30,102 nucleotides of DNA from a virus. Where the stretch lies: positions 1-30,102 of the IMG/VR virus record IMGVR_UViG_3300013233_000635; one strand, given 5' to 3'. The notes under the pieces were generated by a model. That model saw only the letters and a list, made by a program, of their open reading frames with translations. It did not search any database and was not told the origin of the DNA. The translations under genes and the position numbers were made by a program. Below, one piece after another: positions 14,113 through 25,928 of the stretch; position 1 is the stretch's first letter, and every line of letters begins with the position of its first letter.

Positions 14113-15996
14113 TCAAGTGGTGATTGCGTCGGTCATGGAGGCAAAGGATTCAGCATGGCGAATTGCCACATCAACATCCTGTAAAGCCACAATGCGAACA
14201 GCACCAGAGGTAGATTTTGAATAAGGATCAACGGTCAGATCAAGAGCGCCCCACATGCCAATCAACATATCGTTGAAGTTACCAAACACGATCGAAGACA
14301 GATTGACACCAGAACCTTTGCTGCCATTGGATGGAACTGCATTGGTCATCGCGGCGACATAGCCATTGAGCGGAGAATCAGGTGATTTACGATCCCACAC
14401 CTTTTCACCGGAACCCGCATCAATCAGCGTTTTCTTCAGCTTGCCACGCGTTGTCGCATTAACCAGGTAAGCCATTTGACCAATCGCCGCATTGGCAACA
14501 GAAACCGCACTTTCCAAATCAATAATATGATTGTCTGTTGGTGCAGCACCGTTGGCGCCACCGGCAACAGAGCCAATACCCGTGGTGTTCAGAAGGCCCG
14601 TTGGATCATCACCACTGGCTGCGCCATTGATAGCCGCCTGTTCAATAGCCAGACCAAGAACCTGAGCCAAATCACCTTGGACAAGGTTTTCAACATCGAT
14701 GCTCGACTGCTTCAGTGTTTTGCGGCTGATGTCGGTAAAAGCACCGACCGTATGTGGTGTCATGGCAATCTGATCAAGGGTCTGATCAGATTCGGTTGGC
14801 GCACCTGACTCACCAAGCCAGTACGATGTTGCACCGCCTGTCTGACGTGGAATAGCCATATCACCAACAAGGCCGGCTAAGGTGCGAACGCCCAAACCAG
14901 ACAACACCATGGCATTGCGCAGCATGTCGATGAAGTCACCACCACGAAGATCTGTATCAACCAGATTATTGGCAGTGCCAGCACCCACCGTTAGTTCACG
15001 GGTAAGCACTTCGTTTGGAATAAGAATACCCTGAGCCGTACGGCCCTGAACCGTTTCAACAGCACGAGAACATTCAAATTCGAATGCAGCAGCATCCAAG
15101 GCTCGTTTATCATTCGGATGAGCCAGTGCGTTCATGGCGCGCAGGAATGAAAATTGACGGGCAGATTTCTTGTCTAGCCCAATCTCAGCGGACGGGGTCG
15201 GCTGGGTGGCTGCTTTTTCAAGCAAGGCTTCTTTCATTGCATCGACAGACTTGCCATCGCGAATGAACGATCTAGCCATTTCATTGCCGCCATATTTTTT
15301 ATACTGCTCGCCGGTTGCGAGCAAATCGCTAGTGCGCTGGCGTTCAACCGCCGCAGCGTCAATCTTGTTATCGTCTTTTTTGTCAGACATTTCAGCACCT
15401 CTCACTTCAATTTTTTTATTATTGGATTTTTCTTTTTTTTGTTTTGCAGGTTTGATTTCGATAAAATCAATTGTTGAATTGGCATCAGCAGCCGATTCGG
15501 ATGACCGACCAATACCAACAGACGTGTCGGCAGGCACAGAAACCATCGACACTTCAAACGGCTCCCAATCGGTCACACGGTATGTATCAACATCACCATC
15601 TGACTCTTCCCGGACATCTTTATGGATGATGTAACCGACAGACACATGGCTACGAATACCATCAACCACATCGTTGAATATCTCTTCAGCTCGCTGACTT
15701 CTCCCGAAGCGCACAACCGCACGGCCAACCTTGTCCGCACCGATCTCCACCGATTCAATAACACCAACATGATCACGGCTATCGTGATCCATGAGTAACG
15801 GGCCCCCATCTGACAGGCGACCCAAACGAATTGATTTGCTTTCGTGATCCAGAACTTCAATGCCCCAATAACGCTCATATGGCTCTTCACTGGAGAAGGC
15901 CAACGCGACAGTGCGCGCTTCTTCATCAATCGCCTTTTTCTCAATCTTGAGATGGCGGAACACCTTTGAGCCCGGCTTGATATGTTTATCTAACAT
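14113..15996 (-). CDS. Prohead protease-major capsid protein fusion (HK97-fold)
   Basis: 627 residues. Residues 1-165 are a herpes-type prohead protease: His71 (LLMDHD), Ser119 (SHVSVGY) and Glu148 (PFEVSMVSVPA) are the likely triad. A lysine-rich linker (182-200) leads to a scaffold-like helix (205-290) and an HK97-fold capsid domain to the end (RGGDFIDMLRNAMVLSGLGV, SYWLGESGAP, FGNFNDMLIGMWGALDLTVD). The protease would remove the scaffold part during maturation. The start has GAGGTGATAG upstream. An internal ATG at 15390 (residue 203) also has an AGAGGTG site seven bases away, so a separate 425-residue capsid form may be made, and an A8 tract lies in the linker. Fusions of this type occur in other prophages. 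Confidence 0.9.
   Translation of the reverse strand: MLDKHIKPGSKVFRHLKIEKKAIDEEARTVALAFSSEEPYERYWGIEVLDHESKSIRLGRLSDGGPLLMDHDSRDHVGVIESVEIGADKVGRAVVRFGRSQRAEEIFNDVVDGIRSHVSVGYIIHKDVREESDGDVDTYRVTDWEPFEVSMVSVPADTSVGIGRSSESAADANSTIDFIEIKPAKQKKEKSNNKKIEVRGAEMSDKKDDNKIDAAAVERQRTSDLLATGEQYKKYGGNEMARSFIRDGKSVDAMKEALLEKAATQPTPSAEIGLDKKSARQFSFLRAMNALAHPNDKRALDAAAFEFECSRAVETVQGRTAQGILIPNEVLTRELTVGAGTANNLVDTDLRGGDFIDMLRNAMVLSGLGVRTLAGLVGDMAIPRQTGGATSYWLGESGAPTESDQTLDQIAMTPHTVGAFTDISRKTLKQSSIDVENLVQGDLAQVLGLAIEQAAINGAASGDDPTGLLNTTGIGSVAGGANGAAPTDNHIIDLESAVSVANAAIGQMAYLVNATTRGKLKKTLIDAGSGEKVWDRKSPDSPLNGYVAAMTNAVPSNGSKGSGVNLSSIVFGNFNDMLIGMWGALDLTVDPYSKSTSGAVRIVALQDVDVAIRHAESFASMTDAITT
15390..15402 (-). 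promoter_or_regulatory. Internal ribosome binding site and start for separate capsid protein
   Basis: Within the fusion gene, GAGAGGTG stands seven bases before an in-frame ATG (15390-15388, residue 203), just past the protease domain. The downstream product starts MSDKKDDNKIDAAAVERQRT, a normal charged scaffold-type beginning, and would have 425 residues. This site suggests capsid subunits can be made without the protease. Confidence 0.6.
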
Positions 15997-22106: not shown

Positions 22107-22381
22107 GCCTGCTCCCGGTAAATGTTGAAATACTTACAGCCTTTATCTGTCAACATTGCCTCGTCTCCGAAAACCTCTTTTTTAATCTCCACAAATCCAC
22201 ATGAAACGAGCATGGACAACACTGCGCGACACCTTTTTTCCGTCCAATGTCTGCCAGGCTCAATAAGAGGAGACCAAGAGACACCGATACTTGCCTCCCG
22301 CAGCCTTCCGCTAGCATTGTTTTGTGAAATCATGAGAGCAATCACCCGCCCAGCGTCATAATCAATCTGAATGGAACTCAT
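22103..22381 (-). CDS. Hypothetical winged-helix-like protein
   Basis: 92 residues. The segment HWTEKRCRAVLSMLVSCGFV, followed by EIKKEVFGDEAMLTDKGCKY, fits a winged-helix ending: recognition helix, then a beta wing and the common LTDKG-x-x-Y motif of MarR-like or phage HTH proteins. Function not known; a transcription or replication accessory role is possible. The start overlaps the previous stop as ATGA. Confidence 0.6.
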   Translation of the reverse strand: MSSIQIDYDAGRVIALMISQNNASGRLREASIGVSWSPLIEPGRHWTEKRCRAVLSMLVSCGFVEIKKEVFGDEAMLTDKGCKYFNIYREQA

Positions 22382-22629
22382 GCCGCATACCTCAATTCAT
22401 TGGCTTCCGCTGCTGCTTTTGCCTTGAGCATCGCAGCCAAATCCGCAGCAGCCCAGGCCGGATAAGCTCGAACCGCTGCCCGCTCGGTCGGGAATCGCTC
22501 GATATCCAGCACAGGGATATCTTTGCAGCATGGGCCACCAGCGATTACACCAGTGATATCAAGGTTCACCCAGTACGATTCGCCGCATGCCTTGCATTCC
22601 ACCATGTTCAAATCGATACCATCAGACAT
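22378..22629 (-). CDS. Small zinc-binding-like hypothetical protein
   Basis: 83 residues from ATG 22629, chosen because GGAGG lies five bases upstream. The Cys pairs CKACGESYW and GGPCCKDI look like a metal-binding knuckle, and the rest is an Ala-rich helix (AAVRAYPAWAAADLAAMLKA). It is the first gene past the candidate origin, so its promoter may lie in the AT-rich centre of the iteron region. Function unknown. Confidence 0.65.
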   Translation of the reverse strand: MSDGIDLNMVECKACGESYWVNLDITGVIAGGPCCKDIPVLDIERFPTERAAVRAYPAWAAADLAAMLKAKAAAEANELRYAA

Positions 22630-22650
22630 AAGAACCTCCATAAAAATCCA

Positions 22651-22901
22651 TTTGCTTCATTTGCTTCACCATTTGCTTCACCACTAATGTCTGAAAGACT
22701 TGCTATGAAAGGCTTTTGCTTCATTTGCTTCATTTGCCTGTTGTTTCTATATGATGCGAGGCTTGTATATATTGCGTCTGTATATAATGCGCTCACATGT
22801 AGCGCGGGAGTGAAGCAAATGGAGCAAATGAAGCAATCGCCTTGTGCAGCAAGGGTTTGCGCACATTGATGTGGAGCAAACGGTGAAGCAAATGGAGCAA
22901 A
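22651..22901. other. Iteron arrays in inverted orientation, candidate phage replication origin
   Basis: No gene is supported here. Nine-base units TTTGCTTCA stand at 22651, 22660, 22672, 22715 and 22724, with a partial at 22733. Reverse-oriented units TGAAGCAAA or TGGAGCAAA stand at 22811, 22820, 22829 (ending T), 22872, 22884 and 22893. Many are head-to-tail with exact 9-base steps. Between the arrays is an AT-rich core with the tandem pair TGTATATATTGCG (22764) and TGTATATAATGCG (22779), a plausible unwinding element. It lies directly behind the primase-helicase stop. In phage P4 the alpha primase-helicase binds iterons at its origin; the same logic is inferred here. Confidence 0.7.
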
Positions 22902-22912
22902 TAAAGGTATCA

Positions 22913-25300
22913 TCATGATTCAACAGCAGTGCGAAAACCGTTCACTTTTTTAACCAGCCATTCCTGCCAGCGCGCTTCATCGGGCTTTTGATCATCTTCG
23001 GGCAACACAACACAGACCACCTTGGCTTTGCCCGTGGCCTGCAGCACTGGCTTTTTAGCAACAATGAGATCGTCGCGCATATTGATGCGGGCTGAGAACT
23101 TGTTTTTGGCATAAGCGAAGCGTTCACCTTCAGTCCGTATCCAGCGCTCATAGAATCGATATAAATCAGCCAGGGCGCAGGCTGTGAGGCCGACATCAAG
23201 CTCATCACGCAACCAAGCCTCGATGAATCGATCAGGTGACTCCTTGGATATCTCAATCAGAGCCGTGCGGGCTCGCGTTTCGATGGGCGGTGTGCCGGGA
23301 TTGAAGTCACCGAGATCAACATTGAGCAGATGATCATGCAGCGCCTCGATGCCACCGTTGTTGATTTCAGCAAGCACGGCTTTGTAAAACTCTGGGTCGC
23401 GCTTTTTAGGTGTCCAGATGGCCATGAATCGGCGATCATCCGGATCAAGCACCACCGGCTGTGCCTCATTGGACAGAAACACAAGATTGAGATGGTTGCG
23501 TTCATCGTGTGAGGCCACGTTTTTCGGATTGATGTGAATCCAGTCATCAGTGATCAGCGCTTTGATCTTGTTCTTTTGATGAAAAAGCTCAGCCCGCGCC
23601 ATGACTTCATTAGCGATCAGGAACAATTTTCGGCTAGCCCATTCGTTGAATTTCTCTTCCAGTTCAGACTGGCCAACCACGCGGCCATATTCACCATAGA
23701 TACCCATGACGGCCTCGAAAAACATGTTTTTACCCACGCCCTGACCACCATGCACCACAACAGCGGTTTTCATTTTGGCACCCGGATGTTGAATCGGATA
23801 AGCCAGCCATCTGATCAGCCACTTATAAACATCGCGACTGTTCTTTTCTTCGCTGCACATATAGGCCAGCAGCTCCAAAAGCTTGTCGCATGAGCCTTTG
23901 TTATCGGGGGTGGTTGGCCAGCCACCCCACATATTGCACTCAATATTCGGATCGGATTCAGTCGGGTCAAATCCCACCGCATCGATATCGACAATTTTAA
24001 AATCAGGATGCCGTTTCATTTCATCCCAAGCACGGCCAGAAGTGATATCCAGCACACATGATTTTGGCACGATCTTGAACAGAGCGCGATCAAACATGGC
24101 ATCTTTAACGCCAAAAATAAGAGGGAATCGATCAACAGATTCATCAACACTAATAATCCGCAGCTTGTCTTTCCCCGCCCCCCCTTGTTGCGCGCCCCGC
24201 GCTGGAGGCGAAGATTTTCCAGCTTTGGGGAATTTATCAGCGATGGCGGCACGCAGCTGCGCTGCCACCACGCCCAGCGTCTCGTCACAATGCAAATCGT
24301 TGAAATCGGTGAGCTTGCGCCATTTGCCATCAACTTGGCGGGCGGTGAATTCAGGTTTGATCCATTCGGCATTGTCGATAGTCATGGCGGCTTTCATGGC
24401 CACGGTCACGCCGGTGTTGTGTTTGCCGGGCGCTTTGTCGCAATGCGAACATGATGGTTCAGCTACCAGCGTTTGCTTTTTGCAGTGCTGGCACCGGCAT
24501 AGATAATCATCATCGGCACCGATCAGCCAGCGCGCACGTGGGTATTGTTTTTCAAGATTGAGCAGCACGGGCAGAATATTGTTGGCCGAAAATACCACCG
24601 CGACAGGCAGGCCGCTGGCTTCAAACATGCTTGCGCCAGTCGCATAACCCTCGGTGAGCATGTTCACGCCGGTTGGATCAATGGCCCCGATCAGATGGAA
24701 ATGACCTTGCATGGCTAAGCCAGTTGGCCAGAAGCGCTTGTCACCATCCATTTTCTGAATGCGCTTTTTGTGCAGCTCATTATCGCGATCGAGAATGAAT
24801 TGCAGGCCGTGAATCTTGCCGTTCACATCTTGCATGGGCACAGCCAGCGCACCATCTTTGAAACGAATGCCGTGCGCCTGCACCTGTTTGCGGGTCAAGT
24901 ATCCGGATGAACCTTCAAGCTGCATGGAGCGCCAATATTGCACGGCCTTTTCTGCTGCCTTGGCCTGAGATCGTTTGAGTTCAGCAGCAAGCTTTTTCTT
25001 GTTGGCCGCGATGCGTTTGCGAATTTCGGCATTATCAGCTTTGCTGGCATTCGATGATTTGGGTACTTCGATTTTCTGCGCACCATTATCAGCACCATGC
25101 CAAACACCATATGAGCCGACAATAACAATATCGCCAGAATCGAAGGGCAGCTCATGCAGCCAGTACCAGCCTTTTCGGCCACGCTCACCATCAACACGGC
25201 AGCGGACTGGCTTGGATGTACCAATGGCAAAACCGGACAGATCCAGACCGGCCGCAGCCAGTTGGATTTCAACATCACTTAAATTGACGGCCATGCTCAT
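22913..25300 (-). CDS. Phage primase-helicase (Toprim, DUF5906-like ATPase)
   Basis: 795 residues. Residues 1-130 are an N-terminal region with a lysine-rich helix; a Toprim domain follows with Glu217 (TEGYATGAS) and Asp263-Asp265 (GADDD). A Cys cluster inside it, Cys268/270/273 and Cys284/287, suggests an inserted zinc ribbon. The superfamily-3-like helicase holds Walker A GGQGVGKN (518-525), Walker B KLFLIANE (558-565), a sensor Asn611 in FLSNEAQP and the DDRRF arginine motif, the DUF5906 pattern of D5/NrS-1-type phage enzymes. It primes and unwinds phage DNA, probably from the iterons at 22651-22901. It overlaps the gpZ-like gene as ATGA. Confidence 0.92.
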   Translation of the reverse strand: MSMAVNLSDVEIQLAAAGLDLSGFAIGTSKPVRCRVDGERGRKGWYWLHELPFDSGDIVIVGSYGVWHGADNGAQKIEVPKSSNASKADNAEIRKRIAANKKKLAAELKRSQAKAAEKAVQYWRSMQLEGSSGYLTRKQVQAHGIRFKDGALAVPMQDVNGKIHGLQFILDRDNELHKKRIQKMDGDKRFWPTGLAMQGHFHLIGAIDPTGVNMLTEGYATGASMFEASGLPVAVVFSANNILPVLLNLEKQYPRARWLIGADDDYLCRCQHCKKQTLVAEPSCSHCDKAPGKHNTGVTVAMKAAMTIDNAEWIKPEFTARQVDGKWRKLTDFNDLHCDETLGVVAAQLRAAIADKFPKAGKSSPPARGAQQGGAGKDKLRIISVDESVDRFPLIFGVKDAMFDRALFKIVPKSCVLDITSGRAWDEMKRHPDFKIVDIDAVGFDPTESDPNIECNMWGGWPTTPDNKGSCDKLLELLAYMCSEEKNSRDVYKWLIRWLAYPIQHPGAKMKTAVVVHGGQGVGKNMFFEAVMGIYGEYGRVVGQSELEEKFNEWASRKLFLIANEVMARAELFHQKNKIKALITDDWIHINPKNVASHDERNHLNLVFLSNEAQPVVLDPDDRRFMAIWTPKKRDPEFYKAVLAEINNGGIEALHDHLLNVDLGDFNPGTPPIETRARTALIEISKESPDRFIEAWLRDELDVGLTACALADLYRFYERWIRTEGERFAYAKNKFSARINMRDDLIVAKKPVLQATGKAKVVCVVLPEDDQKPDEARWQEWLVKKVNGFRTAVES

Positions 25301-25899
25301 GCGTTGAACCTCCGAAGCACATGCCGGGCGGCACGTTCAAATTCGATGGGGAACTCTTTCTGGATGCGTGCTACTACACGTTTATTGATGCGCTTCGTGT
25401 TGAACATGTTCGGCACATCAATGGTGCCAACGGCTTCGATCGGTGTGCGGGCTTTGCCTGATCGTTTAAAAATGGTGCGGCCTTTATTGCCAATGAATGC
25501 ACCCTTGATGGTTTTTGCGGGTCCGCGCTTTTTGATCTTGAAACGAAGCTGGTTCTGGGTGCCTGATTTCTTGCGGCGGCGACCTTCAGCCAGAGTCACC
25601 TTGGATTCTAGGAAACGAATCAGATTCATGGACCGACCACGACGAGAGCCACCCAGTGCGTCCAGTACAGCCACAAGATCGGCACCTTTCTTTGATGCAC
25701 GAAGAACCCGAAGGCGAGGGCGGATATCGGCTGCCTTGAGATTGAATTCAGCACGAATCGCGCGACCCATTTCGGTCTTACCTTTGGCCGCCGTTTTGTT
25801 CAGAGCCATATTCGTAGCTTTGTTTTTCAGACCATCACGCAACCCACCGAGAGCTCGGCTCACTTTCTTGATATCCATTTTCATACTCAGCTCAATCAC
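25297..25899 (-). CDS. Prophage minor tail protein Z family (gpZ-like)
   Basis: I prefer the GTG at 25899 (GGAGGGG nine bases upstream), giving 200 residues; an ATG at 25920 would add seven. Marks of the GPZ family: MALNKTAAKGKTEMGRAIRA, then a basic strand RPRLRVLRASKK, arginine-rich GSRRGRS and EGRRRKKSG, and RTPIEAVGTIDVPNMF before a C-terminal RIQKEFPIEFERAARHVLRR. gpZ joins tail to head in lambda. Here it is coded in the early region, upstream of the primase and far from the tail genes, which is unusual. The high Arg/Lys content could also fit DNA binding. Confidence 0.75.
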   Translation of the reverse strand: MIELSMKMDIKKVSRALGGLRDGLKNKATNMALNKTAAKGKTEMGRAIRAEFNLKAADIRPRLRVLRASKKGADLVAVLDALGGSRRGRSMNLIRFLESKVTLAEGRRRKKSGTQNQLRFKIKKRGPAKTIKGAFIGNKGRTIFKRSGKARTPIEAVGTIDVPNMFNTKRINKRVVARIQKEFPIEFERAARHVLRRFNA

Positions 25900-25928
25900 A
25901 GCCCAACCCCTCCAAAGCATCTCATAGT

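Follow-up and report, generated by a model that had tools for sequence, protein, structure and literature searches.

A probable replication origin with mirrored iteron arms behind a primase-helicase gene in a temperate tailed phage

Origins located 3′ of primase-helicase genes

The origins of PICI, which are satellites without a full set of virion genes, are located immediately 3′ of rep and comprise two iteron sets flanking an AT-rich region; in the case of EcCICFT073, a rep-ori segment supports plasmid maintenance, much of which is lost without ori (PMC6092414). SaPI Rep and Cch2 use their C-terminal domains to recognise iterons lying directly downstream of their own genes, with the Cch2 origin containing only three AAGTG iterons (PMC7581432). 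In the alpha protein of P4, a TOPRIM primase, a helicase, and a C-terminal winged helix are joined in one polypeptide (PMC4234260). In pRN1 and Bordetella phage BIP-1, the origin element directly 3′ of the primase-helicase gene is a stem-loop without iterons, shown to be required in pRN1 and proposed for BIP-1 (PMC4234260).

The locus described here, positions 22651-22901 of an IMG/VR record of 30,102 bases (hereafter the window, that is, the whole stretch of DNA analysed), very probably serves a temperate tailed phage as its replication origin, and would be bound by the primase-helicase of that phage through a C-terminal winged helix, probably as two hexamers. This reading draws on sequence comparison, on a structural model, and on analogy with the systems above. 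The element in the window encodes an integrase, a terminase, a portal protein, a capsid protein, a tape measure protein, and an amidase, as well as CII-like and Cro-like regulators, and has the look of a complete temperate phage with a tail; since it encodes a full set of virion genes, it is not itself a PICI. Both relatives recovered from genome assemblies are in Zetaproteobacteria, suggesting a zetaproteobacterial host for the window phage. An iteron origin of the PICI/SaPI kind is known in principle; what appears to be new, as judged from sequence, is its occurrence in complete temperate phages, with a strict ruler that is independent of the letters of the unit. No description of such a phage-origin family was found in the open-access literature, subscription papers being outside the scope of the search.

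Arm geometry and comparison with described systems

A motif scan of the window located TTTGCTTCA exactly on the + strand at 22651, 22660, 22672, 22715, and 22724, and with at most one mismatch on the − strand at 22811, 22820, 22829, 22872, 22884, and 22893. The scan bore out two observations of an earlier note on this DNA made from the letters alone, namely the presence of two unit arrays and the switch in their orientation (+ strand on the left, − strand on the right). The same note had counted twelve 9-base units; eleven of these hold with at most one mismatch, while the twelfth, TTTGCCTGT at 22733-22741, is degenerate, with three mismatches. Eleven TTTGCTTCA sites at this stringency are thus packed into 251 bp, compared with a chance expectation of ~12.6 for the entire 30-kb window. 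Furthermore, the top 9-mer in the 300-bp region has 11 sites, compared with at most four in 100 shuffles, which excludes chance as an explanation for the array.

More detailed inspection of the spacing revealed two mirror arms of six sites each (the eleven within one mismatch plus the degenerate one) flanking a 69-bp core. The start-to-start spacing in each arm, from the outside inwards, is 9, 12, 43, 9, and 9 bp, and not the uniform 9-base head-to-tail spacing reported earlier; that is, each arm consists of an outer triplet with sites 9 and 12 bp apart and, 43 bp further on, an inner triplet with sites 9 and 9 bp apart, with the right arm mirroring the left. On the left (+ strand), the outer triplet (22651-22680) is made up of the units at 22651, 22660, and 22672, and the inner triplet (22715-22741) of those at 22715 and 22724 and the degenerate unit at 22733. 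On the right (− strand), the inner triplet (22811-22837) is made up of the units at 22829, 22820, and 22811, and the outer triplet (22872-22901) of those at 22893, 22884, and 22872. The right outer triplet is the one nearest the primase stop codon, the distance from that codon to the last right-arm unit being 11 bp, where 12 bases had been given. On the other side, the intergenic region is bounded by a downstream gene of 87 aa (22378-22641, − strand), and a similar protein is readable at the same place in one relative, L003. Counted from the outermost site, the starts at 0, 9, 21, 64, 73, and 82 stay, by arithmetic on a 10.5-bp helix, within ~70 degrees of a single face, an arrangement to be expected if subunits were bound in a row.

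The core (22742-22810) has a GC content of 43%, and had been called AT-rich; it is only moderately so, but positions 22749-22788, the least stable 40 bp of the region by nearest-neighbour duplex energy (99.4th percentile of the window), rank among the least stable 0.6% of the window and constitute a candidate unwinding element. The two tandem TGTATATA(A/T)TGCG blocks noted in the core were located by sequence scan on the + strand, TGTATATATTGCG at 22764-22776 and TGTATATAATGCG at 22779-22791.

With respect to described systems, the comparison with P4 alpha put forward in the earlier note is a fair one, but the PICI/SaPI origin is nearer in layout (PMC6092414). As in PICI and SaPI, two iteron sets surround a core, the unit differs between elements, and the array lies just past the stop codon of the initiator gene. 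The AT-rich core of PICI is matched by the core of the window, but not by the cores of its GC-rich relatives. An element of CFT073 at 1377930-1388654 was taken to be EcCICFT073 on the basis of its gene order (integrase, DNA primase family protein, PerC, and capsid genes). In the region 3′ of its primase gene (L124), TCTACC sites are arranged as a mirrored pair of six-site arms, with a degenerate sixth right site, and the spacing within an arm is 9, 46 (to a reversed site), 22, 11, and 9. The origin regions of EcCICFT073 and the window are thus alike in lying right behind the gene for a DUF5906 replication protein, in having mirrored six-site arms, and in their 9-bp steps, but differ in the spacing itself, and the geometry of the window, used as a template, scores 0.41 on EcCICFT073 and does not fit it. 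In addition, EcCICFT073 Rep shows D5_N, DUF5906, and Pox_D5, whereas the primase domain of the window protein is of the TOPRIM type, and BLASTP detected no significant similarity between EcCICFT073 Rep and the window primase-helicase. P4 likewise has short iterons, its crr lies ~46 bp 3′ of the alpha gene, and spacings of 9 and 43 bp recur in it. However, P4 has a separate ori and crr, its 8-bp type I iterons, with the unit TGTTCACC, are in mixed orientation, and it has no six-site two-arm mirror; the window template scores 0.33-0.36 on P4, no better than on shuffles.

The same ruler behind related primase genes

A search with the primase recovered five close viral loci, two Zetaproteobacteria MAGs, and named phages, and an alignment-based search raised the number of viral relatives to at least 588, with 80 of them retained. 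The close relatives all carry inverted 9-bp arrays directly after the primase gene, written in other letters. Units across the wider set of 87 regions considered below include, for example, TGTGCGGGC and TGTGCAGGG, and Stenotrophomonas phage S1 has a TGTGCGGG-type unit. The array mostly starts 3-30 nt past the primase stop in the relatives. The unit of the window is itself nearly private, a literal search of viral contigs having returned 24 matches that are mostly isolated; among these matches, L015 is the same contig as a true relative (L041), and L026 and L030 hold some further sites. The 331-bp region had no match when compared at the DNA level with named phages.

A unit-free autocorrelation of 87 distinct 3′ regions showed peaks at lags of 9, 18, 12, 21, 64, 55, 73, 43, and 82, which are the pairwise distances predicted from the geometry of the window. 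The window template scored higher than all ten shuffles of the region concerned in 75 of the 87 regions (~8 expected; 11 in the coding control) and higher than the maximum of all 870 shuffles in 55 of the 87, a bar never passed by the coding control. The failures, 12 of 87 against the regions' own shuffles and 32 of 87 at the strict bar, are partly explained by arms that use other layouts. Across the 86 relatives, with the window excluded, the spacing of the window had the best mean score of 31 spacings tried, and every one of 33 alternatives scored lower, these being 30 one-step spacing changes (of 1-3 bp) and three direct or unmirrored arm arrangements. Co-occurrence with related primases, which the earlier note had proposed as a check, was thus found: arrays of the window geometry stand 3′ of most of those examined, once the letters of the unit are allowed to vary. 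A self-contained initiator and iteron origin, as that note had supposed, is the best explanation for this pattern. The note did not anticipate the mirrored layout of six plus six sites, the change of unit from phage to phage, or the covariation of the unit with the C-terminal winged helix described below.

Other layouts were also observed. In the clade of the window, four loci (L032, L040, L041, and L003) combine a left arm of the window type with a right arm containing one reversed unit (spacings of ~45 and 21); these right arms resemble those of PICI, making the four loci putative mixed-layout origins, and the coexistence of both kinds of arm in one clade indicates that the two layouts grade into each other. 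Phages of P. stutzeri and P. aeruginosa again have 12 sites, six per arm, at another spacing, and the window template does not fit Pseudomonas, Halomonas, and Moraxella phages with reversed sites. No convincing array was found just past the primase gene in ECO1230-10, PPpW-3, FoX2, LPPA36, KA2-1, and ST4, and the feature is therefore not universal among phage primases. These six belong to the phages matching only over the N-terminal half of the primase, which mostly have no arrays; PS3, which has one, is an exception. In S1, the arms (2479-2734) are overlain by gp2, annotated as a hypothetical protein (2454-2804 of L034), which is probably a spurious gene prediction made across the origin.

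The cores of the relatives are mostly 57-85 bp long and, in GC-rich phages, are not AT-rich (mean, 59% GC). The motif CTC[AG]C[AG] occurs in 21 of 52 cores, compared with 4.75 expected, and its reverse form in 16, compared with 3.45, forming a second inverted element. An inverted CTCGCG-type motif, enriched over shuffles, was seen in many cores (L040-L119; 22742-22810 in the window), where it is often followed by TATATAG.

The relatives also bear on other readings of the region. The earlier note had held that the arrays could not be explained by coding. This does not follow from the window alone, in which an ORF of 102 aa (22608-22916, − strand) spans the arrays, but the relatives have no shared open frame; any one frame is open in at most 33 of the 52 loci, and coding was ruled out. 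That the region acts instead as a large hairpin or cruciform of DNA or RNA, either as a structural origin like those of pRN1 and BIP-1 or as an RNA element, is highly unlikely. The window strand does fold strongly (z −12.8), and the stem-loops of pRN1 (required) and BIP-1 (proposed) provide a precedent 3′ of a primase (PMC4234260), but arm complementarity across 52 loci is 0.55 inside the units and 0.30 outside them, the latter being near background, and the right arm of several relatives is not a mirror of the left. A hairpin would, moreover, have no need of direct repeats within an arm, and no Rfam family reached the gathering score in the region.

Bordetella phage BPP-1 has a repeat of another kind (~1100-1210 of L121). 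Past bbp28, at ~0.5 kb from the primase on its 3′ side, TTTGCCTCG doublets form a short inverted pair. The doublets are not significant by site count, and the window template does not fit BPP-1; the origin may lie in this repeat and not in the previously proposed hairpin, which immediately follows the primase gene.

Repeats are typical of packaging and partition sites, and terminase genes lie ~1.2 kb downstream of the arrays in the window. A role as a pac/cos or partition site is nevertheless extremely unlikely, given that the arrays stay 3′ of the primase while the terminase varies in distance, from <0.4 kb in S1 to ~2 kb in SC_9_H1H8_2017, that the unit covaries with the C-terminus of the primase (see below), and that no gene of the ParB type was noticed next to the array of the window.

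The primase-helicase as proposed initiator

The proposed initiator of the candidate origin is a TOPRIM primase-DUF5906 (SF3-type) helicase of 795 aa (22913-25300, − strand), with matches to Pfam DUF5906 (4.3e-20) and to PHROG 2249, DNA primase (5.8e-120). Residues E217 and D263-D264-D265, which were interpreted as belonging to TOPRIM, and G523-K524 of the P-loop are invariant or nearly so in alignments A1-A3. The N-terminal half is covered by plasmid matches annotated as toprim or primase-bearing, and the S1 orthologue shows a DUF5906 match together with matches to Toprim_3 and Toprim_4, both sub-threshold. A confident AlphaFold2 model built with 51 relatives (pLDDT 87.9) ends in a winged helix, composed of helices 710-723 and 732-740 and strands 745-753 and 759-767. 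This predicted domain (residues 706-767; 23000-23185, − strand) is, from the model and the covariation described below, the proposed reader of the iterons. The protein would thus have an architecture like that of P4 alpha, with a TOPRIM primase, a helicase, and a predicted C-terminal winged helix.

Foldseek matches include the NrS-1 helicase, poxvirus D5/E5, the SaPI5 primase-helicase, and PriRep1 with double-stranded DNA. The SaPI5 primase-helicase, PriRep1, and Cch2 resemble the window protein in having D5/DUF5906-type helicases (structural matches 7ola and 7pds). For the C-terminal domain alone, the nearest match is a weak one, to the fold of an archaeal Orc1/Cdc6 initiator on origin DNA (E 0.04).

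Unit similarity was compared with the identity of protein segments across 48 non-redundant loci, with the rest of the protein controlled. Residues 690-795 showed a partial r of 0.39 (0 of 1000 permutations), and 0.43 (0 of 1000) without the clade of the window, the strongest 20-aa windows lying at 736-765, that is, where the second helix ends and in the wing. No link was found for the helicase (0.05), TOPRIM (0.12), or N-terminal (−0.04) segments. The linker (341-439) covaries more weakly (0.30; 0.25 with 12 of 1000 permutations without the clade of the window), and part of the covariation may thus reflect shared ancestry. Pseudomonas phage PG1 and phage LPPA56 differ in their primase domains (TOPRIM and Prim-Pol, respectively), but have in common the DUF5906 module, the unit TGTGTTGGG, and the site layout.

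The identity of the covarying protein as the primase-helicase also counts against a reading of the arrays as operators, at which this or another phage protein would control the downstream late genes. With six sites in each of two mirrored arms and a length of 250 bp, the region is far above the usual size of an operator. The arrays do have the primase gene on one side and the late genes on the other, and TGTATATAATG is similar to an extended −10; however, no sigma-70-like promoter was found in 22300-23300, scans of the region for promoters and terminators returned nothing convincing, and the similarly built region of EcCICFT073 is needed for plasmid maintenance (PMC6092414). An operator role is, overall, very unlikely.

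Under the origin reading, the primase-helicase would bind the twelve 9-bp sites through its C-terminal winged helix, one subunit per site and six sites per arm, such that a hexamer would form on each of the two converging arms. The facing hexamers would then melt the labile core between the arms, and the two helicases would run outwards, with the TOPRIM domain laying primers for a host polymerase. The outcome would be two forks and bidirectional theta replication. Against this reading, a GC-skew switch at 22.7 kb, which the earlier note had suggested looking for, is absent; the probable reason is that almost every gene is on the same strand. A DnaA-dependent iteron plasmid origin was ruled out, since no DnaA boxes were found beside the arrays, the only TTWTNCACA match in the window being at 2176.

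We lean slightly towards a broader proposal, according to which the fixed ruler (mirrored arms, each with six 9-bp sites spaced 9-12-43-9-9) would set the loading of two initiator hexamers across a large family of temperate-phage origins, while the letters of the sites drift together with the winged helix. If so, the family would contain many mutually blind replicon specificities, and its pairs of winged helix and unit could be read as a recognition code. Under the origin reading itself, the logic of satellite origins extends to complete temperate phages of many hosts, which suggests that satellites and these phages have a common initiation mechanism. It would also provide an origin map for phages whose origin is unannotated in the records examined and sometimes hidden beneath a predicted gene. 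Because the geometry is constant while the unit and the domain that would read it vary in step, these phages offer dozens of naturally occurring pairs with which to test how an SF3-type helicase selects an origin and how two hexamers load.

Two further features of the window concern structural genes. A gene resembling those for minor tail protein Z or tail completion (PF06763, PHROG 27; 25297-25920, − strand) lies just upstream of the primase, among the early genes and not in the structural block. A single ORF (14113-15996, − strand) encodes the prohead protease (S78) as a fusion with the major capsid protein.
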